This document shows, in pieces, positions 37,551-48,292 of a DNA stretch of 55,084 nucleotides. This DNA comes from Bacillota bacterium (lineage in GTDB: Bacteria; Bacillota; Sulfobacillia; Sulfobacillales; Sulfobacillaceae): positions 1 to 55,084 of the forward strand of contig JAJZZA010000016.1 of assembly GCA_021797825.1 (NCBI GenBank). The letters are read 5' to 3'. Positions within the stretch are counted from its first letter, which is position 1. Each line of letters begins with the position of its first letter. The position numbers and the translations under genes were made by a program. Under the pieces are notes generated by a model that worked only from the letters and a program-made list of their open reading frames with translations, made no database searches and was not told the origin of the DNA.

Positions 37551-37556
37551 AGGAGG
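37551..37556 (+). promoter_or_regulatory. Ribosome binding site of the HdrB-like gene
   Basis: A perfect AGGAGG is followed by TGAAGGG, the same context as at 45162-45174 before another gene of this block. Eight bases on from AGGAGG is ATC (37565), not ATG. The in-frame GTG at 37556 overlaps the site, and the next GTG codons are at 37595 and 37598. The true start is therefore uncertain. Confidence 0.6.
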
Positions 37557-38380
37557 TGAAGGGCATCTCTCAAGAAGACAAGAACCCCAGCAACGTGGTG
37601 CATTATGCGGGATGCCAAGCGGCCGTGGTGTTGCACGAGCGGTTTCTGTCGACAGAGCAGATTGCGGATGGTTTGGGCGTGGAAATGGAGCGATTGGCGC
37701 CAGACGATTGTTGTGGCGGCGTGGAAGACCCCCCCAATTTTTTTAGTGGGATTGTGGCCCCGCTGCGCATCATCGATTTGGCCGGCGAACACCAGCTGGT
37801 GACGTCGTGTCTCAGTTGTCTGGCTAACTTGCGGGGTGCCTTTAACCGCATGGAGCAAAACCCGGAGACACGGCGGCGGGCCATATTTTCCATGCAGGTG
37901 GTGGGTTATGAGGCCCCAGAATCCACCAGTGCGCGGCATCTGCTGGATCTCCTGGCCGAACAGAACCTCGCCCAGTTGATCGACACGCGGAAAACCACGG
38001 ATCTCGACGATTTTCCGGTGGCGCTCTATTACGGCTGTCGCAAAGCGGAATTGGCCGCCGGCACCGCGGCAGAACTGGAGTTGAGCCTAGAGCAGGCCGG
38101 AGCGCAAATTGTCCCATTTCCGGATGCCGAGAGCTGTTGCGGCGCGCCGAAAGGTTACGGCAACGGCCTGCCCGGCGGCAAAGGCCAAGAGGTGCTGAAA
38201 AAAGCCGCGCAAACCGGAGCACAGGCCGTGGTAACCGTTTGCGGCATGTGCCAGGCCAACTTGGAAAAACAACAAACCGATCTCTTGGTGATCCCGTTCC
38301 TGCAGCTCATGGCGGTGTCGCTGGGGATGGCTGACCCTAAAGTGTGGCTAAAGAAATTTGATTCTGTTGAGGGAGGTTGA
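37556..38380 (+). CDS. HdrB-like CCG-domain iron-sulfur protein
   Basis: Up to 274 residues. Two cysteine-rich CCG domains are complete: Cys20, CysCys52-53 and Cys85/88, then Cys161, CysCys194-195 and Cys229/232 (numbering from GTG 37556). The pattern matches heterodisulfide reductase subunit B, where each domain can bind a non-cubane cluster for disulfide or electron-transfer chemistry. No HdrA or HdrC gene is nearby. It lies directly upstream of the molybdopterin enzyme, so it is probably an electron-transfer partner. The start is uncertain (37556, a rare ATC at 37565, or 37595); MVHYAGC from 37595 would resemble other HdrB N termini. Confidence 0.85.
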   Translation: MKGISQEDKNPSNVVHYAGCQAAVVLHERFLSTEQIADGLGVEMERLAPDDCCGGVEDPPNFFSGIVAPLRIIDLAGEHQLVTSCLSCLANLRGAFNRMEQNPETRRRAIFSMQVVGYEAPESTSARHLLDLLAEQNLAQLIDTRKTTDLDDFPVALYYGCRKAELAAGTAAELELSLEQAGAQIVPFPDAESCCGAPKGYGNGLPGGKGQEVLKKAAQTGAQAVVTVCGMCQANLEKQQTDLLVIPFLQLMAVSLGMADPKVWLKKFDSVEGG

Positions 38381-38384
38381 AGGA

Positions 38385-40808
38385 ATGCCTGAAATCAAGC
38401 CCGACTATCGACCGCAAGAATCCACCAAAGATTACGATACCGTCCGGCGAACGACATGCACCAACCAATGTGAATCGGGTTGCGGCATGAAGATCTTCCT
38501 CAAGGAAGGTCGCATCGTGGACATTATGGGCGACGAGTCGCATCCTTTGAGCCGGGGCGGATTGTGCAGCAAGGGCACCAGCCAATTCCAACGCTATTAC
38601 GACCCCTTGCGCGTGCATTATCCGCAAATTCGCCAGTCCCTCGACGACCCTTTTCAGCGGGTCACCTGGGATGAAGCCATTGATTTTGTCGCTGAGCGTC
38701 TCACGCTGTTGGAACAGCGTTACGGACCGGAGGCGCTGGCTATCTTTCGAACCGGTCGCGCCTCCATGGGCCAAAAAGTCGGGGGCGGCCGGTTCGGCCA
38801 TTTGTTTGGCACCCCCAACGTTTTCGGACAAGGCCCCATTTGCTGCGAGAGTCCTGGCGCAGCCATGAACTATGTCTTCGGCGCAGAAGGTCTGGGCCGT
38901 CTCATGAATCCGAGCCCGGACTGGAAAAATGCCCGGTGCATTCTGATGGTGGGTACCGAAATGGCCTCGCAGGAGGTTATTACCTACCGGGCGATTTTGG
39001 ACGCCAAGGAGGCCGGAGCCAAGGTTATCGGGGTCGATTGCCGATTCAACTCATCCATGTCCAAGGCGGACCTCTTTTTGATGGTGCGCAACAACACCGA
39101 TACCGCGCTCTTCCTGGCGATGGCTAACGTCATCATTCAGGAAGGCCTGTACGATAAGCGGTTCGTAAACCAGTGGGTCTCCGGCTTTGAGGAATACAAG
39201 CAGGCCTGCGCGGAGTGGACGCTGGACAAGGCAGAACGGGTTACCATGGTGGATCGCAACCTGATCGTCAAAGCGGCCCGCCTGTTTGCGACCTCGAAGC
39301 CCGCGCTGGCCACCGGTTGCTTGGGCACGGCCCAGCAATACAACTCCAACAATACCAACCGTTCCATCGCGGCGCTGCTGGCCCTGACCGGCAATATTGG
39401 CATCAAGGGCGGCGGCTGGAACTGGTTGCACAACTGTCGGCCGCCTCTCTCTTACGGACATGATATCGACGATTTGCCCACCCCCAGACGGCCGGTGATT
39501 GCCGATAATCTGTTGCCCTGGGGAGACAATTCGGTTCCGGTGATTGTCAACGCCATGCTCCACGGCAAGCCGTATCCCATCCGCGGCCTGATCTGGAACG
39601 GCAACCATCTGCCGCAATTTCCCAATGTGACCAAGACCGAAAAGGCCTTGCGCAACAATCTCATTACGGTCCATCTGTCGATTTATCCCAACCACACCTA
39701 CCATTACGCGCATGCCGCCTTCCCCATCGCGATGGGCATGGAGACGGAAAGCATCTGTCATCACGGCAACAACCGCCTTATTCAATGGCACAACAAGGTG
39801 ATTGAATACCAGCACGAACATCGTCCGGACCTGTTCTTCTATGCCAAATTGGCCAAGAAACTAGGGTTTGGCGATAAATTCCCCTGGCTCGTCGACAATG
39901 ACACGGACGTGGACGAGAAGGCGTTTACCAACTGGCTGCTCAAAGAGGACCACATGACGGCGGGCATCAACTCCTTTAACTTGGATCCGGAGTGGAACCC
40001 TCGCGGCGGCATCATGTGGCCCGCGGAAACCGAGGAAGAGGCCACCTATCAGGATCCCGAGGCCACCTTGCGCGGCAAATGGATCATGTACCAGGAAGGG
40101 GACGTCTACCCTGGCAGCGACAAGCGGTTCCCGACTCCTTCCGGCAAGATCGAACTGGCCTCGCCGGCACTCGAGAAGCTGGGTTGGGACCGTGTCCCCC
40201 GTCACCGGGAGGGCAGCGAAACCTGGATTGCCAATCCGGAACGGGCAAAGAAGTATCCGATCTCGCTGAACACCTGCCGCATGACCTCCAGTTTTCATGA
40301 GGGGGGGCACTGGTGGCCGTGGGCCGATGAATTGGTACCCGACCGCTTCATCCAGATTCATCCGGAGCTGGCGCGGATTCTGGGCATTGAGGATGGCGAC
40401 ACGGTGATCCTCGAGAACGACCGCGGCAGTATCGACGGACCGGCTTGGGTCACCGAGATGGTGCCGGCCTGGGGCACCTGGGTCAACTTCGGCTTTGACC
40501 GGTATCAACCCTTCCATCCCTACGAGACCGTCAACGTCGTCATCGACGACATCATCAAAGATCCCGTCTATGGTCAGATCCAGTGGAAATCCATGGCCGT
40601 AAACGTCTACCGCAAGGGAGCGGATGGCGCCCAGGCGGCGGCAGACGTTCATGCCTATTTGACCAAAACTTATCCGAATCTGTTCAACGGTGAAGGCGTG
40701 CTGTTGGGAACCTACAAGGACCGCAACTGGGACTATGAAGAGAAAGAGCCTTGGCAGGATCCCTTTACGGAAAACGTTCCTGTCGCGGGCACCAAAGTCG
40801 GCAGGTAA
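38385..40808 (+). CDS. Molybdopterin oxidoreductase catalytic subunit (formate dehydrogenase/DMSO reductase superfamily)
   Basis: From ATG 38385 the protein has 807 residues. An N-terminal [4Fe-4S] site is formed by Cys25, Cys29, Cys33 and Cys61. Cys154 in ICCESPG aligns with the molybdenum-ligand position (SeCys or Cys in formate dehydrogenases). The C-terminal cofactor-binding domain carries EDGDTVILENDRG. There is no Tat signal, so the enzyme is predicted cytoplasmic. GGGAGG lies eight bases before the start. Formate is possible, but the substrate cannot be deduced, and no fdhD gene is in the window. It follows the HdrB-like gene by four bases and precedes a ferredoxin subunit. Confidence 0.88.
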   Translation: MPEIKPDYRPQESTKDYDTVRRTTCTNQCESGCGMKIFLKEGRIVDIMGDESHPLSRGGLCSKGTSQFQRYYDPLRVHYPQIRQSLDDPFQRVTWDEAIDFVAERLTLLEQRYGPEALAIFRTGRASMGQKVGGGRFGHLFGTPNVFGQGPICCESPGAAMNYVFGAEGLGRLMNPSPDWKNARCILMVGTEMASQEVITYRAILDAKEAGAKVIGVDCRFNSSMSKADLFLMVRNNTDTALFLAMANVIIQEGLYDKRFVNQWVSGFEEYKQACAEWTLDKAERVTMVDRNLIVKAARLFATSKPALATGCLGTAQQYNSNNTNRSIAALLALTGNIGIKGGGWNWLHNCRPPLSYGHDIDDLPTPRRPVIADNLLPWGDNSVPVIVNAMLHGKPYPIRGLIWNGNHLPQFPNVTKTEKALRNNLITVHLSIYPNHTYHYAHAAFPIAMGMETESICHHGNNRLIQWHNKVIEYQHEHRPDLFFYAKLAKKLGFGDKFPWLVDNDTDVDEKAFTNWLLKEDHMTAGINSFNLDPEWNPRGGIMWPAETEEEATYQDPEATLRGKWIMYQEGDVYPGSDKRFPTPSGKIELASPALEKLGWDRVPRHREGSETWIANPERAKKYPISLNTCRMTSSFHEGGHWWPWADELVPDRFIQIHPELARILGIEDGDTVILENDRGSIDGPAWVTEMVPAWGTWVNFGFDRYQPFHPYETVNVVIDDIIKDPVYGQIQWKSMAVNVYRKGADGAQAAADVHAYLTKTYPNLFNGEGVLLGTYKDRNWDYEEKEPWQDPFTENVPVAGTKVGR

Positions 40809-40823
40809 AGGGGAGGCAACAGG

Positions 40824-41432
40824 ATGCAAGACACGTTCACAAAGAAGAACCCATGGGAAGGACGGGACTCCCGAGTCACCCTTAAAGGCGGCAAGGTCCG
40901 TCTGGCTATGACCGTCGATATGGACCGTTGCATCGGCTGCTTCAGTTGTGAGATCTCTTGCAAAATGCAAAAAGATCTCCCGGTCGGCCCCCGGCTCATG
41001 CGGGTCATCCAGATCGGCCCGTACAAGGTCAAGGCTCACGGCAGCTATCAATTGCGCACCGCCTACGTGCCAATGAACTGTCGCCAGTGCGAACCCGCCC
41101 CGTGCATCGAGGTGTGTCCAACCGGGGCCATGCAGCGCCGAGAGCAGGACGGCATCGTTTTCGTCTCCGAGGAACTCTGCATCGGCTGCAAGAGTTGCAT
41201 CGCCGCCTGCCCGTTCGGAGCACCCCAACTCAACCCGAACACCGGCAAAGTGATCAAATGCGACTACTGCATGGACCGACTGGATCAAGATCTGCTGCCG
41301 GCCTGTGTCACCAAGTGCTCCATGGATGCGCTCCGCTTCGGAGACGTCAACGAACTCTCGACGCTCAACCGGGAGAAACATGTCCGCATGTTGACGGCGG
41401 ATTTGTTCAACTGGACCAAGAACCAGGTTTGA
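40824..41432 (+). CDS. Four-cluster ferredoxin subunit (NrfC/DmsB type)
   Basis: The 202-residue protein has four cysteine groups: CIGCFSCEISC at 36-46, CRQCEPAPCIEVC, CIGCKSCIAACPFG, and CDYCMDRLDQDLLPACVTKC. These are the four [4Fe-4S] sites of electron-transfer subunits paired with molybdopterin enzymes. No signal peptide is present, in line with a cytoplasmic complex. ATG 40824 follows GGGGAGG. It lies 15 bases after the catalytic subunit. It would carry electrons between the molybdenum subunit and the HdrB-like or flavin partners. Confidence 0.93.
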   Translation: MQDTFTKKNPWEGRDSRVTLKGGKVRLAMTVDMDRCIGCFSCEISCKMQKDLPVGPRLMRVIQIGPYKVKAHGSYQLRTAYVPMNCRQCEPAPCIEVCPTGAMQRREQDGIVFVSEELCIGCKSCIAACPFGAPQLNPNTGKVIKCDYCMDRLDQDLLPACVTKCSMDALRFGDVNELSTLNREKHVRMLTADLFNWTKNQV

Positions 41433-41445
41433 TGGAGGTGAAATC

Positions 41446-41700
41446 ATGAGTGGCGCGCCTTTTGTCGGTACGGTTACCGCAGTCCCTTTTCGCGTGCAGT
41501 ATGAAGATCATGACCAAGCGGATTTCTTCCGGGCGGAGGAAGCGCTGAAACAGGCGGGAATCCCCATTACGGGCCGCAAGGTGATGAGTGTTCCCCCGTA
41601 TCATGCGACCATTTTTGTTTCCCTGGCCGACGAGTCGAAAGCGGTCGAAGTTCTGCAGATGGCTGGAATCCGGACGTTTCCGGCGACACCGGTATATTAG
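41446..41700 (+). CDS. Unrecognised 84-residue protein in the molybdoenzyme operon
   Basis: I do not recognise this family. The sequence is soluble, with no cysteine, and alternates strand and helix: FVGTVTAVPFRVQYE, a helix around ADFFRAEEALKQAG, then RKVMSVPPYHATIFVSL and a helix ESKAVEVLQMAG. That is the order of a small ferredoxin-like or ACT-like fold. ATG 41446 follows GGAGGTGA. It is 13 bases after the ferredoxin gene and 17 before moeA, so it is cotranscribed. A chaperone or regulatory role for the molybdoenzyme is conceivable from position only. Confidence 0.72.
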   Translation: MSGAPFVGTVTAVPFRVQYEDHDQADFFRAEEALKQAGIPITGRKVMSVPPYHATIFVSLADESKAVEVLQMAGIRTFPATPVY

Positions 41701-41717: not shown

Positions 41718-43001
41718 ATGGGGCGGTCCACCGTGGAAGAATTGCAGCAATTGGTCTTGGCGGAGGTGGCGGTTCTGCCCGCTCCGGAGCGAGTGCCGCT
41801 CCCGCGCGCGCTCGGGCGGTGCCTGACCGAAGACCTCACCGCTCCCATCAATGTGCCTTTGTTCACCCGCTCCGCCGTCGACGGCTATGCCCTGCGCAGC
41901 GCGGATACGCGCGGCGCATCCGCCGCCTCGCCGGTCACGCTTACGCTGATCGAGAAAGTGACCACCGGACATGTCCCCCAGCGACCGCTTCATGCCGGCC
42001 AAACCGCCCTGACCACGACCGGCGCCATGCTGCCCGCGGGCGCTGATGCGGTGGTGCTGGTGGAAAAGGCAACCCAGCGGGACCAGACGGTGACGATTGA
42101 CCGGGAGATCGCCCCCGGCGAGCACATGTCGGTGACCGGAGAAGACTTCGCGGTTGGCGAGACGATTCTGCGGCAGGGACACGTGCTCCGCTTGGTGGAT
42201 GTGGCCGCTCTGGCCGCCCTCGGGGTGACCACGGTGCCGGTGGCCAGGCGTCCGCAGGTAGCGATATTTTCAACCGGAGACGAACTGGTTGCGCCGGGGG
42301 ACAGTTTGGGCCCGGCGCAAGTCTACGACGCCAACGCCTCCCTGTTGGAGGCGGCCGTGTTGGAGGCCGGCGGAGAGCCCCATCGCCTGGGCACCATCCC
42401 GGACCAGGCCGACCTGGTGGAGCATCGTATTTATCAGGCCTGCGCGAACGACGCCTTTGATCTGGTGGTGACCACCGGTGGCACCGGTGCCAGCCTGCTG
42501 GTCTTAGAGGGCCAGGATGTGGAAAACATCCACGACTTGATTCCCGGGGCACTGGCGAAACGGGGACGGCTGAAGAGCCACGGGCTGTTGATGGTTCCGG
42601 GCAAGCCCACCGCGTTCGGCGAAGTCGCCGGTACGCCGGTGTTTGCGCTGGCGGGGTGGCCTTACTCCGTCATCATGACGTTTCATCTGTTCGTCCGCCC
42701 GGCAATCCGCAAGATGGCCGGGCTGCCTCCGAGGCCGCCCAGCCGCGAGGTGTCCGCCCGCCTCAGTCAGGAGGTGGCAACGGAGCCCGGCGTCCGCAAG
42801 TACTTTCAGGTCCGTCTCGGCAGGCGGGAGGGGGAGGTTTGGGCGGATCCTTTGCTGCCCCCCCGGCCGCCCTCGGCGGCACGCACCATGCATCAAATGT
42901 TGCAGGGCACCGGGTACTTCCATCTGGACGGGGTTCACCAGTTGCGGGCAGGCCCCGGCGATGCGGTGCGGGTCGTGGTCGATGACCCCCTCTGGCAATG
43001 A
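41718..43001 (+). CDS. moeA: Molybdopterin molybdotransferase MoeA
   Basis: The 427-residue enzyme inserts molybdate into adenylylated molybdopterin. It shows the MoeA N-terminal domains (FTRSAVDGYALRSADT near residue 52, TGAMLPAGADAVV), the MogA-like domain with STGDELV and VTTGGTGAS, and the late motif PGKPTAFGEV. Length is typical. ATG 41718 follows GAGGAGG. It overlaps the radical SAM gene by four bases (ATGA), so cofactor maturation is cotranslated with the enzyme operon. Confidence 0.94.
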   Translation: MGRSTVEELQQLVLAEVAVLPAPERVPLPRALGRCLTEDLTAPINVPLFTRSAVDGYALRSADTRGASAASPVTLTLIEKVTTGHVPQRPLHAGQTALTTTGAMLPAGADAVVLVEKATQRDQTVTIDREIAPGEHMSVTGEDFAVGETILRQGHVLRLVDVAALAALGVTTVPVARRPQVAIFSTGDELVAPGDSLGPAQVYDANASLLEAAVLEAGGEPHRLGTIPDQADLVEHRIYQACANDAFDLVVTTGGTGASLLVLEGQDVENIHDLIPGALAKRGRLKSHGLLMVPGKPTAFGEVAGTPVFALAGWPYSVIMTFHLFVRPAIRKMAGLPPRPPSREVSARLSQEVATEPGVRKYFQVRLGRREGEVWADPLLPPRPPSAARTMHQMLQGTGYFHLDGVHQLRAGPGDAVRVVVDDPLWQ

Positions 43002-43879
43002 TTGCGTCATTGCGCGTCTCGGTGTGGTCGGCATGCGATTTGTCTTGCCGGTATTGCCATCGTGAGGGCAATCGCCGCCCAGGCCGCCACTTATCGGACG
43101 CGGAGCTGACGACGTTGGTCCGGGCGGCTCTGCCGGCGGGTCTCAGAAAGGTGAAGATCACGGGTGGAGAACCGCTGTTGCGGCCGGGGTTTCCTGCTGT
43201 GCTGCGCGCGCTGTGCGGGTGGGGACTGGAATTGTCCCTGACCACCAATGGCACGCAGCTGAAGACGTTGGCGACCTCAATAAAAGAGGCGGGAGTGGCC
43301 AAAGTCAGCGTCAGTCTTGACACTTTGTGGCCTCAGCGATTTCGCCAGTTGACCGGCCAGGACGCCCTGCCGCACGTGCTCAGTGGCATTTTTGCGGCCC
43401 GCGACGCGGGCTTGCCGCTGGAAATCAACAGCCTGCTATTGGCCCACATCAATGACGACGAGGTGACCCAGCTAACGGCCTTTGCCGCCGCCGCGGGCGC
43501 TCGCCTGCAGTTCATCGAGCTGTCTCCCGAGGGGAATTCGGCAGAGTTCTACCAGCGCCACCACATGAGTCTGGACGGGTTGGAGAACTGGCTGAGCACG
43601 AACGGGGAGACCTTGGAACCCGCCCTGTCTCCGGCTGACCGACCCCGCTACCGGTGCAACGGGGTCGAGGTCAGTTTATGCCGCTGGGTGCAGGAGACCC
43701 CCGCAGGGGGACGCCGCCGCCAGGGTCTGCGTCTAGCAGCCGACGGGAAGGTGTACGGGTTCGCGTATGGAGATCCTCCTCGCGCCGACTTGGCGGTCGC
43801 GGTGCGCGCCGGAGTCCGTGACGAAGCTTTGACCCGATTGTGGCTGGCCGCAAGTGGCCCAAGCATTAACAGGAGGTAA
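42998..43879 (+). CDS. MoaA-like radical SAM protein lacking MoaA C-terminal features
   Basis: The 293-residue protein has the radical SAM motif CDLSCRYC (CxxxCxxC) at residue 13 and KITGGEPLLRPGF, as in MoaA. MoaA proteins also bind a second cluster through three C-terminal cysteines and end in Gly-Gly. Here CNGVEVSLC supplies two cysteines, but the third position reads LAADGKVYGFAYG without one, and the end is SGPSINRR. It is also about 40 residues shorter than typical MoaA. So it may not make cyclic pyranopterin from GTP. It overlaps moeA by ATGA and precedes the QueD-like gene by five bases. Confidence 0.83.
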   Translation: MIASLRVSVWSACDLSCRYCHREGNRRPGRHLSDAELTTLVRAALPAGLRKVKITGGEPLLRPGFPAVLRALCGWGLELSLTTNGTQLKTLATSIKEAGVAKVSVSLDTLWPQRFRQLTGQDALPHVLSGIFAARDAGLPLEINSLLLAHINDDEVTQLTAFAAAAGARLQFIELSPEGNSAEFYQRHHMSLDGLENWLSTNGETLEPALSPADRPRYRCNGVEVSLCRWVQETPAGGRRRQGLRLAADGKVYGFAYGDPPRADLAVAVRAGVRDEALTRLWLAASGPSINRR

Positions 43880-43884
43880 TTGGC

Positions 43885-44376
43885 ATGAAGCTGAGTCTTT
43901 TGGGTAAAGAGGCCGGTCTTGGGTTTCAAAGCGTTCACCTAGTTCCCGGACGGGGAATGTGCAGTCGTTTGCATCCTCATTTTCACACGGTTTCGGTAAC
44001 GTTGGAGGGTGAACCTTCTGAGCGGGGGATGTTGGTGCACATCTATCGCTTAAAAGAGGTGGTCCAGCGTTTGTGCCTGGATTTGGACCATATGGTGCTG
44101 CTCGCCGACTATCCGCCGGAAGTGATGACCGTTGAGGAGCAAGATAGCGGCTACCGTGTGCACGTTAACGGAAAAGACTACTTTTTGCCGCGAAGCGACG
44201 TGCTGCGCCTGCCGATCAGAACCTTAAACGTGGAAGATTTGTGCCAGCACCTGGCAGAGAGCCTGCGGGACCGCCTCGAGCCGATCTTGGACAAACGGCG
44301 GATCGTCTCCTTGACGGTTGACGTGGACGAAGGAGACGGACAGACGGCGTCCGTAACCTTGCCGATAGCGCGATGA
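43885..44376 (+). CDS. QueD/6-pyruvoyltetrahydropterin synthase-like enzyme
   Basis: The 163-residue protein matches the PTPS/QueD family by position of all key residues. The zinc ligands are His18 (SVHLV), His30 and His32 (LHPHFH), and the catalytic cysteine is Cys26. LDLDH gives Asp68 and His69, NVEDL places Glu117, and VDVDEG near 145-150 matches the pterin-anchoring Glu. Such enzymes convert dihydroneopterin triphosphate to a tetrahydropterin. The gene lies five bases after the radical SAM gene and overlaps mobA by ATGA. No queC, queE or queF gene is in the window, so queuosine synthesis is not obvious. Confidence 0.78.
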   Translation: MKLSLLGKEAGLGFQSVHLVPGRGMCSRLHPHFHTVSVTLEGEPSERGMLVHIYRLKEVVQRLCLDLDHMVLLADYPPEVMTVEEQDSGYRVHVNGKDYFLPRSDVLRLPIRTLNVEDLCQHLAESLRDRLEPILDKRRIVSLTVDVDEGDGQTASVTLPIAR

Positions 44377-45020
44377 CCGGGGCGGTGCTGGCGGGAGGGC
44401 AGAGCTCCCGGATGGGCCGGGAGAAGGGTTTGGTCGAGTTGGGCGGACGAAAAATGGTCGAGATCATTACCACCAGATTAAAGACCGCCCCGGCCATCGA
44501 GCGGGTGCTGTTAATTACCAATCACCCGGAGCGTTTTCAATTTTTGGAGCTGGGCATGGTCAGAGACCGTCATCCCGGCAAAGGTCCTTTAGCGGGAATC
44601 CATGCGGCCCTGTCCGAAACCGGAAGTTGGGTCTTTATTGCCGCCTGTGACATGCCATTTTTGCCCGCGGGATTGCCCCAGTTTTTGGCGAAATTCCGCG
44701 CCGGCGTCGACCTGGTCCTGCCGCGCATTCGGGGTTATGCCGCCACCGTGGCGGCCTTATACGGGCCTGGGTGTTTGCCGGTGATAGAGGATGTTTTGCC
44801 GGGGAAAGCACCCCGTTTGACCGACATTCTTGGTCGGCTTCGGGTTCGCGAAGTATCCGAGGAACAGTTGGCAATCCTCGGCAATCCAGAGATGGGTTTT
44901 TTCAGCGTGAACACGCCGGCGGATATGGCGCGGGCAAAGCGGGTTGCAGAGGCGGCCGTGCTCGATGACCCCGCGGACCCGCGGGGTCCGCTCGTAACCT
45001 TGACCGGTTTCAGCGGGTAA
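44373..45020 (+). CDS. mobA: Molybdenum cofactor guanylyltransferase MobA
   Basis: The 215-residue protein begins with the nucleotidyltransferase motif GAVLAGGQSSRMGREKGL. It shows GPLAGIHAAL and AACDMPFLP (metal-binding Asp), as in MobA, which attaches GMP to the molybdenum cofactor to give the bis-MGD form used by DMSO reductase-family enzymes. This matches the molybdopterin enzyme at 38385. Near its end, bases 44967-44988 form a perfect nine-base hairpin around four bases (GACCCCGCG and CGCGGGGTC), which lies in coding sequence. Confidence 0.92.
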   Translation: MTGAVLAGGQSSRMGREKGLVELGGRKMVEIITTRLKTAPAIERVLLITNHPERFQFLELGMVRDRHPGKGPLAGIHAALSETGSWVFIAACDMPFLPAGLPQFLAKFRAGVDLVLPRIRGYAATVAALYGPGCLPVIEDVLPGKAPRLTDILGRLRVREVSEEQLAILGNPEMGFFSVNTPADMARAKRVAEAAVLDDPADPRGPLVTLTGFSG

Positions 45021-45175
45021 CGGCGCAGAGGGTTTGGCGGCTAAGACCCCTCGGGGGCAGTACTCGCCGACTGCGGTCTGGCGGCGCTCCGGTGGGGTAC
45101 CGAAGACAGCCGCGCGAAACTCTAAAGGATGGGGAGCGATGGTTTCGCCGTCGAGTCGTTAAGGAGGTGAAGGGA

Positions 45176-45700
45176 TTGTATCCGGAACGGGTCGTAGAGT
45201 ACACCCGGGGGATCAATGTGGATGCAGCGAAGTGCGATGGTTGTGGGGATTGCGCCGAAGCCTGCCGCCGAGCCGTGGCTGGCCAGCACCGCCACACGGA
45301 TCCGTTTCCGCGCATCTGGGTTCAGCAGGTAGACCACAAACAATATCCCGTATTGTGCCACAACTGCGAACAGGCTCCCTGTGTCAGCGCGTGTATGACC
45401 GGTTGTCGCCACCGGGTGGGAGACTTCGTGACAACGGACTATGCGCGTTGCGTGGGGTGCAGCATGTGCGTTATGTGTTGTCCGTTTGGGGCTATTGAGT
45501 TGGTCGAGGAAGAACACTTGGCGCTAAAGTGCGACGGATGCTTGGATGAGGAGACAGCCCCCTGCGTCGCAGCTTGTCAAAAGGGTGCCCTGCGCCATGT
45601 CGGCTACCTGCAAAGCGTCTCTGAAACCCGCTACGCCGGGGCAGCGGCCTTGGCTTTTTCCAGTTTGTTGGCAGCGTCCAAGAAGGGGGGCAAACCCTGA
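45176..45700 (+). CDS. Four-cluster ferredoxin (CooF/HycB-like)
   Basis: From TTG 45176 the protein has 174 residues. Four cysteine groups are present: CDGCGDCAEAC, CHNCEQAPCVSAC, CVGCSMCVMCCPFG, and CDGCLDEETAPCVAAC. The start is fixed by AAGGAGG at 45161-45167, eight bases upstream, in the same AGGAGGTGAAGGG context as the HdrB-like gene. It overlaps the next gene by one base (TGATG). Ferredoxins of this type paired with a flavin NAD(P) oxidoreductase occur in CO dehydrogenase and formate systems, which suggests transfer to the flavoprotein encoded next. Confidence 0.9.
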   Translation: MYPERVVEYTRGINVDAAKCDGCGDCAEACRRAVAGQHRHTDPFPRIWVQQVDHKQYPVLCHNCEQAPCVSACMTGCRHRVGDFVTTDYARCVGCSMCVMCCPFGAIELVEEEHLALKCDGCLDEETAPCVAACQKGALRHVGYLQSVSETRYAGAAALAFSSLLAASKKGGKP

Positions 45701-46965
45701 TGCGCTATGTGATTATCGGGAACTCCTACGGCGGTTTGGCTGCTGCCGAGGCCATTCGCAAGCGGGACGGCCATGGCGAGATTATTGTCCTCTCGGATGA
45801 GCAGCACCCGGCTTACGGACGTCCGCTAATCTCCTACTATCTGGGCGGGGAGATGTCCCCGGACCGCATGCACTACCGCCCCCCGTCTTTCTACCGAAAC
45901 TATAACATCCAGGTCCGGCTGAACGCGCGGGTGGTGAAATTGCTACCGCAAAAGCACGCTGTGCAACTGCTTGATGGCTCCTTACTCCCATACGGGCGCC
46001 TGCTTATCGCCACCGGCGGCCAACCTTTCGTGCCGCCCATGAAAGGCACCGGTTCGCCGGGAGTCTTCACCTTCACCACCTGGCAAGACGCCGATGACAT
46101 CAAAAACTGGCTGCCGCGGGTGCAGGAGGTCGTCGTCATCGGCGGGGGCCTGATTGGGCTTTCGGCGGCCGATGCCTTGCGCCACCGAGGTGGCGCCAAG
46201 GTCACGGTGGTCGAGATGCTGCCGCGAGTGCTGGGGTTGGCGCTAGATGAAGACGGTTCCCGGATGCTGCAAGACAAGATGCAAGCGCTCGGCACCAAGG
46301 TGGTAACGGAGGATTCTGTGGTGGAAATTGTGCCCGGTGCCACCGGTGCCGTAGAAAAAGTGGTCTTAAAGAGCGGAAGAGAGTTGCCGTGCCAAATGGT
46401 GGTAGTGGCCATCGGCGTGCGTCCCAACGTTGAGTTTCTTAAAGATAGCGGGATTCAAATCAACCGGGGGATCGCCGTCGACGAACACATGCAAACAAAT
46501 CTGCCGGACGTTTATGGCGCTGGCGATGTGGTGGAGGCCAAGGACATCATCAACGGCGACAACCGCGTCATCGCCATTCTGCCGGTGGCTTACGAGCATG
46601 GCCTGGTCGCCGGTGCCAACATGGCAGGCGATGTGCAGGTTTATGCGGGAAATATCGCGATGAACTCCATGCCCAAGTTCAACATGTCGGTAATGACCAT
46701 GGGTCTAACCCTGGACCAACCGGACCTGGTGGCCGTACGCCGACAACGCGGCGATCAATATCAAAAATTCCTGTTTCAGGGAGATAGGCTGGTCGGAGCT
46801 ATCCTCATCGGCAACACCACCGCCGGCGGCGTGTTAACCGCGATCATTAAGAAGCGGGAACATTTGACCCCGGCGATGAAGGAGCGGATTGTTTACGGCA
46901 ACTATCGATCACTGGTGGCCGAACGGAAATTGACCTGGAGCAAAGCCGTAGAGGTAGCGTTGTGA
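45700..46965 (+). CDS. FAD/NAD(P)-dependent oxidoreductase
   Basis: The 421-residue flavoprotein has the N-terminal FAD-binding GNSYGGLAAAE (a GxGxxG variant), PAYGRPLISYYL, the second Rossmann motif VVIGGGLIGLSAADAL near residue 145 for NAD(P), and VYGAGDVVEAKD near residue 270. It belongs to the NADH oxidase/nitrite reductase-like pyridine nucleotide-disulfide group, but no redox-active disulfide pair is visible. Its overlap with the ferredoxin suggests it links the molybdoenzyme's electrons to NAD(P). Confidence 0.9.
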   Translation: MRYVIIGNSYGGLAAAEAIRKRDGHGEIIVLSDEQHPAYGRPLISYYLGGEMSPDRMHYRPPSFYRNYNIQVRLNARVVKLLPQKHAVQLLDGSLLPYGRLLIATGGQPFVPPMKGTGSPGVFTFTTWQDADDIKNWLPRVQEVVVIGGGLIGLSAADALRHRGGAKVTVVEMLPRVLGLALDEDGSRMLQDKMQALGTKVVTEDSVVEIVPGATGAVEKVVLKSGRELPCQMVVVAIGVRPNVEFLKDSGIQINRGIAVDEHMQTNLPDVYGAGDVVEAKDIINGDNRVIAILPVAYEHGLVAGANMAGDVQVYAGNIAMNSMPKFNMSVMTMGLTLDQPDLVAVRRQRGDQYQKFLFQGDRLVGAILIGNTTAGGVLTAIIKKREHLTPAMKERIVYGNYRSLVAERKLTWSKAVEVAL

Positions 46966-47167: not shown

Positions 47168-48292
47168 TTGTTGCCCGGCAACCGCTACGGTGTGTCCGAA
47201 TGGGCTGGCGCCTTCGGGGATATCGGCACCTTGATTCCGTTCGTGCTGGCCTACGTCACGGTGTTGCATATCAATCCGGTGGGGGTCCTGTTCTCTTTCG
47301 CTGTGGCTTACATCGTGGTCGGGATGGTCTATAAAACACCCATACCCGTGCAACCGATGAAGGCCATCGGCGGTTTTGCGCTGGGCCATCCGCACCGGGT
47401 GAGTCCCGCCATGGTATGGGCGGCAGGGTTAATCGTGGGGTTGGCCTGGATGATCCTGGGCCTCTCCCGGGCGGTTGAGGTATTAAGCCGGCTAGCGGCC
47501 AAGCCGGTCGTGCGGGGAATCATGCTGGGCCTGGGAATAACCTTTGCGGAAATGGGGATCGCCCACATGAGCCGCGACTGGCCGCTCGCCGCCTTGGGCG
47601 TGGCGGTAGCCCTGGGACTTTTCGCCACCCGCTTTCCCGCCATGTTCGCGCTGTTGCTCATCGGGTCGGCCGGCGCCCTGCTCGGTCACCCGGGCTTGCC
47701 GACCCAGTTGGCACAAACCGGCTTGGCCTTTCGGCTGCCGTCTTTCGGAGCGGGCTTCCTGGCGGGACCTACCCTGAGTCGGGGATTCTTTCTGTTGGCC
47801 CTTCCCCAGTTGCCATTGACCCTGGGCAATGCCATCATTGCCATTACCCACGAGAATAACGGACTCTTTCCGCAGCATCCGGTTACTGAACGCAAAATAG
47901 CCATCTCGACCGGCATCATGAATCTCCTGGCCCCCTGGCTGGGCGGGGTGCCCATGTGTCACGGCGCCGGGGGGATGGCCGGACATGTGCGCTTTAACGC
48001 CCGTACCGGCGGTTCGCTGGTCATCCTGGGGTCGCTGGTGCTGGTGCTCGCCCTGTTTGGCGGACCGTCCACGCGGCTGATTCTGCAATCCTTTCCATCG
48101 GCCATCGTGGGAGTCATCCTCTTTTTTGCCGGAATGGAACTGGCGGTTACCGTCCAGGACATTGGCAGCCAGAAGCAGGACGTGTATTTGATGCTCTTTG
48201 TCGCAGCCCTGGCCATTTGGAATATGGGGGCGGCATTTTTAGCGGGAGTGATTTTGTCGGAGGTGCTGCGTCGCGGATGGGTGCGCGTGTAA
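47168..48292 (+). CDS. MOT1-type molybdate permease
   Basis: The 374-residue membrane protein contains the MOT1 signatures GAFGDIGTLIPFVLAYV near residue 14, PQLPLTLGNAI, and GGVPMCHGAGGMAGHVRF. MOT1 proteins take up molybdate, which suits its place at the end of the molybdenum cofactor block. TTG 47168 is chosen for AAGGAGG at 47155-47161; TTG 47171 is next. About 200 bases separate it from the flavoprotein gene. CGACCC and GGGTCG at 47049-47065 form a small hairpin in that gap, so it may be read separately. Confidence 0.9.
   Translation: MLPGNRYGVSEWAGAFGDIGTLIPFVLAYVTVLHINPVGVLFSFAVAYIVVGMVYKTPIPVQPMKAIGGFALGHPHRVSPAMVWAAGLIVGLAWMILGLSRAVEVLSRLAAKPVVRGIMLGLGITFAEMGIAHMSRDWPLAALGVAVALGLFATRFPAMFALLLIGSAGALLGHPGLPTQLAQTGLAFRLPSFGAGFLAGPTLSRGFFLLALPQLPLTLGNAIIAITHENNGLFPQHPVTERKIAISTGIMNLLAPWLGGVPMCHGAGGMAGHVRFNARTGGSLVILGSLVLVLALFGGPSTRLILQSFPSAIVGVILFFAGMELAVTVQDIGSQKQDVYLMLFVAALAIWNMGAAFLAGVILSEVLRRGWVRV

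Follow-up and report, generated by a model that had tools for sequence, protein, structure and literature searches.

The window, the whole 55,084-nt stretch of DNA analysed here, contains a compact run of genes that extends from an HdrB-like protein to an FAD subunit, with a MOT1-type transporter next to it (Table 1). Within this run, a radical SAM protein (rSAM) and a PTPS-family protein are encoded between moeA and mobA. The earlier note had placed the two genes five bases apart, with an ATGA overlap on either outer side, and the reading frames bear this out exactly: the PTPS gene starts 5 nt past the rSAM stop, preceded by AGGAGGT, and its own stop shares an ATGA with the mobA start. Promoter and terminator scans gave results close to chance level.

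Table 1. Genes of the operon and the adjoining transporter gene, in window coordinates.
Feature	Position	Strand	Description
HdrB-like CCG-domain protein	37556..38380	+	Pfam CCG 45 bits; first gene of the operon
Molybdopterin oxidoreductase catalytic subunit (MopB)	38385..40808	+	Pfam Molybdopterin 113 bits
DmsB-like iron-sulphur subunit	40824..41432	+	Fer4_11 87 bits; DMSO_dmsB 163.8 bits, under the cut-off of 214
p84, 84-aa conserved protein	41446..41700	+	Kept in 5/5 operons
moeA paralogue	41718..43001	+	MoeA_N 141 bits, MoCF_biosynth; MoeA_C absent (Pfam)
rSAM gene	42998-43879	+	293 aa; start within the ATGA ending moeA
PTPS gene	43885-44376	+	163 aa; CxxxHPH-type PTPS-family protein
mobA-like nucleotidyltransferase	44373..45020	+	NTP_transf_3 113.8 bits
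Ferredoxin-type subunit	45092..45700	+	Resembles PadI, HydN, AegA
FAD/NAD(P) oxidoreductase subunit, PadH-like	45700..46965	+	Pyr_redox_2 203 bits; PadH model 290.8, cut-off 475
MOT1-type molybdate transporter	47168..48292	+	MFS_MOT1 184 bits; adjoins the operon in 4/5 loci

The catalytic subunit MopB belongs to an uncharacterised clade of the MopB/DMSO reductase superfamily, and its best relatives in the PDB are FdhF of HDCR and acetylene hydratase (197 and 195 bits, respectively). Its N-terminus reads MPEIKPDYRPQ, and a Tat signal is not evident there. The molybdenum-ligand cysteine likely lies in the motif GPICCESPG. This motif has two adjacent cysteines where formate dehydrogenases carry Cys/Sec-His. 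Since the ferredoxin-type subunit is similar to PadI and the FAD subunit to PadH, both known from phenylglyoxylate dehydrogenase, the complex may be NAD(P)-linked. The small protein p84, which has no NCBIfam match and no Pfam match above cut-off, has a conserved core in the alignment of the five operons, GRKVMSVPPYHATI.

Conservation of the operon

Among the 154 class genomes searched, four besides the window genome encode the PTPS protein, at 68-76% identity; three belong to the family of the window genome and one to another family. In all five genomes, and thus across two families, the order HdrB-MopB-DmsB-p84-moeA-rSAM-PTPS-mobA-Fd-FAD is identical, and this recurrence in four other genomes argues that the arrangement of the rSAM and PTPS genes is not due to chance. 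MopB is present in exactly the PTPS-bearing five, and the rSAM clade is likewise found in five genomes at 331 bits or more, the next best match (142 bits) being an ordinary MoaA; all three proteins are thus confined to the same 5/154 class genomes. The pairing of the two families beside a molybdopterin oxidoreductase, for which the earlier note had proposed looking across genomes, recurs as one and the same operon.

Relative to the window, the four other loci encode MopB at 86-90% identity and the HdrB-like protein at 63-67%, and among all five copies pairwise identity is 83-93% for MopB, 61-85% for PTPS and 50-68% for rSAM. Wherever dS was unsaturated and estimable, dN was well under dS; the genes compared are under purifying selection and are inherited together. 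The operon is known from five genomes, four of which are labelled as metagenome bins, and since this is a narrow set, the co-occurrence could partly stem from transfer of the intact operon. The records of the relatives are Sulfobacillus benefaciens AMDSBA1, which originates from an acid mine (PMC4378227), and three Bacillota bins.

In a phylum sample of 398 genomes, none of the 397 others had a MopB relative at E<=1e-100, and scanning 84,980 species for two short motifs, which diverged members would escape, gave no further members. Among plasmids, PTPS had zero matches, MopB matched only distant oxidoreductases (27-28% identity), and the listed matches to rSAM reached only 32-44% identity and were mostly annotated as ordinary MoaA; viral contigs gave no matches. 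The literature collection searched yielded neither a description of the operon nor a link between PTPS, MoaA and molybdenum, and the paper on Sulfobacillus genomes in which AMDSBA1 appears mentions neither the contig name nor pterin in its main text (PMC4378227).

The radical SAM and PTPS-family proteins

The description of the first protein as a MoaA-like radical SAM enzyme is upheld by both sequence and fold. Its Radical_SAM domain scores 88.7 bits in Pfam, Mob_synth_C merely 20.6 (cut-off 37.4), and its best NCBIfam matches are MoaA models, all under their cut-offs (197 against 325, 186 against 231 and 175 against 284 bits). It shares with MoaA the N-terminal CX3CX2C motif, a setting among molybdenum cofactor (Moco) genes and, in a predicted structure, the nearest fold (TM 0.83 to 1tv7/2fb2), and it keeps the SAM-binding GGEP. 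In contrast, the features that distinguish MoaA as a GTP enzyme are gone from all five members. At the positions of the S. aureus MoaA cysteines C261, C264 and C278 they carry G/A/S, R and F, and the changes K163E, R192Q, R266G and R71K are found in 5/5; in S. aureus MoaA with bound GTP, K163, R192 and R266 contact the triphosphate. At the matching positions, none of the 25 ordinary MoaAs of the class departs from C, C, C, K, R, R and R, and CxxC-x13-C and the C-terminal GG, which every complete MoaA compared has, are found in none of the five. The auxiliary (second) [4Fe-4S] cluster of MoaA binds GTP directly (PMC5352715). With the cysteines of this cluster and the basic residues missing, the GTP site of rSAM, as read from the alignment, has been lost, and the protein cannot act as a GTP 3',8-cyclase by the known mechanism; very probably it catalyses a radical SAM reaction, though one that does not start from GTP as that of MoaA does. 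The five proteins form one clade with support of 100/100, and its branch, of length 1.72, exceeds every other inner branch of the tree; the PTPS proteins also form a clade of their own, so that both stand apart from the standard proteins.

The second protein carries the zinc histidine trio, Cys, Asp-His and Glu of the PTPS superfamily (COG0720) and matches the Pfam family at 48.2 bits (cut-off 22.4), while remaining under the QueD model TIGR03367 (38.3 vs 89.25). Residue roles follow from aligning the protein with known PTPS members and from what is established for the family: the zinc ligands H18, H30 and H32, the catalytic C26 and D68-H69, and the pterin anchor E149 are invariant in 5/5, and on this basis the pterin-type active site is intact. 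The earlier designation of the enzyme as a full-site QueD relative is thus apt where the catalytic and zinc residues are concerned; in place of HGH, however, the protein has HPH. CxxxHPH is found in all five members, whereas each of the 32 other PTPS proteins collected has HGH. The published signatures are CxxxHGH for PTPS-I, CxxxxxHGH for PTPS-II and ExxHGH for PTPS-III (PMC5041015).

Two known types come closest. With QueD/PTPS-I (6-carboxytetrahydropterin synthase) the operon protein has in common the Cys of CxxxH, the three zinc histidines, the Asp-His pair and the anchor Glu; it differs in its HPH, a score far below the model, an inserted hairpin and the absence of QueC from its genome. 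The closest solved structures are those of Plasmodium PTPS-III (2a0s, 3lze, 3m0n and 1y13; 59 bits, TM 0.74-0.78), which share the insert, but the operon protein keeps the Cys and lacks the glutamate of ExxHGH, having SRLHPH or SGLHPH instead, and FolB is encoded in its genome. Its tree position beside Plasmodium PTPS-III is weak (55/72, with long branches) and carries no weight here, and its AlphaFold model is of moderate confidence, with a mean pLDDT of 74.8 and the active-site loop 20-31 below 50.

Cofactor and pterin genes elsewhere in the genomes

The window genome encodes a canonical MoaA outside the operon (384.9 bits, cut-off 284), as well as MoaC and two of its three MoeA paralogues, both of the latter with MoeA_C. 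The common steps of Moco synthesis are therefore provided elsewhere, and what the operon adds is specialised late-stage moeA and mobA together with rSAM and PTPS. The canonical moaA adjoins folE (GTP cyclohydrolase I) at L059:9202-11052. An operon MoeA without recognisable MoeA_C is also found in loci L055 and L057, and in the relative G437 mobA is followed by another, ordinary moeA, which does have MoeA_C (L057:10505-12196). The G437 stretch around the operon yielded no homologue of MOT1.

QueC is absent from the window genome, where the two weak matches are MnmA and LarE, and no second PTPS was found there. FolB is present (99.5 bits), and the idea that the operon PTPS replaces it was rejected on that ground. 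In G437, a separate queD-queC-queE cluster, whose queE gene is QueE-like, exists besides the PTPS of the operon. Given the absence of QueC, the presence of FolB and a true QueD alongside the operon-type protein in G437, neither queuosine nor folate synthesis explains PTPS. As a pathway, the analogy with QueD-QueE drawn in the earlier note is likewise unsupported by these data, and no QueE family is among the best 25 family matches of rSAM.

Candidate roles of the pair

We tentatively favour, at somewhat below an even chance, a reading in which rSAM and PTPS, inherited together, serve the MopB of the operon as its own maturation pair and tailor its pterin. Neither protein any longer fits its parent reaction and both are tied to one molybdoenzyme, which makes pterin tailoring the simplest account. 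The conservation suggests, but does not prove, that MopB uses a specially modified molybdenum cofactor. The ordinary MoaA and MoaC encoded elsewhere would make cyclic pyranopterin; the PTPS-type zinc enzyme would then act on the side chain of a reduced pterin, which rSAM, its GTP binding lost but its SAM-cluster motif kept, may alter through radical chemistry. The MoeA and MobA paralogues of the operon would supply metal and nucleotide to the tailored pterin, which would enter only the MopB enzyme. The product, a cofactor variant, is our inference, as are the substrate (molybdopterin or one of its precursors) and the sequence of steps. That the MoaA paralogue and the PTPS subfamily act jointly on molybdopterin or its precursor to yield a pterin variant, and with it a chemically novel form of Moco, is a possibility we hold with more reserve. 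The modified or alternative pterin raised at the outset stays the best explanation, the variant itself being predicted from the genes. Adjacent genes need not share one compound as substrate, and p84 could be the target instead.

In a known order of chemistry, QueD acts first and the radical SAM enzyme QueE after it; by the same logic the pair might make a small molecule from a pterin other than molybdopterin, such as an additional redox cofactor serving the same enzyme complex. The conserved PTPS catalytic residues and the lack of auxiliary cluster ligands in rSAM are in keeping with this, but moeA and mobA flank the two genes in 5/5 loci and rSAM is MoaA-derived by sequence and fold, so we consider a separate product unlikely. 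Slightly less likely again is that rSAM modifies the MopB enzyme itself, at a peptide or active-site residue, as radical SAM maturases encoded beside tungsten or molybdenum enzymes do, with PTPS in a different role. The radical SAM maturases of tungsten oxidoreductases form family TIGR04317, to which rSAM has a weak 49.8-bit match, and the two adjacent Cys of the MopB active-site motif are conserved; however, MoaA models match far better (197 vs 50 bits), and no auxiliary CxxC-x13-C remains at the MoaA position.

PTPS chemistry targets pterin side chains, and the pair could instead repair or salvage an oxidised or broken pterin cofactor. Sulfobacillus lives in acid mines and grows aerobically (PMC4378227), which fits such a need, yet repair would serve any Moco enzyme and the genes track one MopB only; we regard it as improbable, more so than protein modification. 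Hardly credible, finally, is the possibility held out in the earlier note that the two genes are displaced housekeeping copies of queD and moaA. The lack of another PTPS in the window genome speaks for it. For moaA it is refuted by the canonical MoaA elsewhere and the lost GTP pocket; for queD it stands refuted by the missing QueC, the FolB in the genome and the co-existence of both PTPS types in G437, and both proteins group apart from the standard ones.

Dedicated pterin tailoring would have a partial parallel in the MeFDH1 system of Methylorubrum (MoeA1, MobB and FdhD), where likewise one molybdo/tungsto-enzyme has its own MoeA-type paralogue; specificity there lies in the metal, and the abstract names neither a MoaA-derived radical SAM protein nor a PTPS (PMC13197769).

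Two enzyme subfamilies are newly defined by the operon, one of MoaA relatives that lack the GTP site and one of PTPS proteins with CxxxHPH; automatic annotation is likely to call them moaA and queD. To our knowledge, the organic part of Moco is thought to be nearly invariant, with only the metal, ligands, nucleotide and ring state varying. As two enzymes of pterin-forming families whose active sites have changed, tied to one molybdoenzyme and with no other evident role, rSAM and PTPS would offer a way to test whether the pterin itself is chemically tailored in cells.
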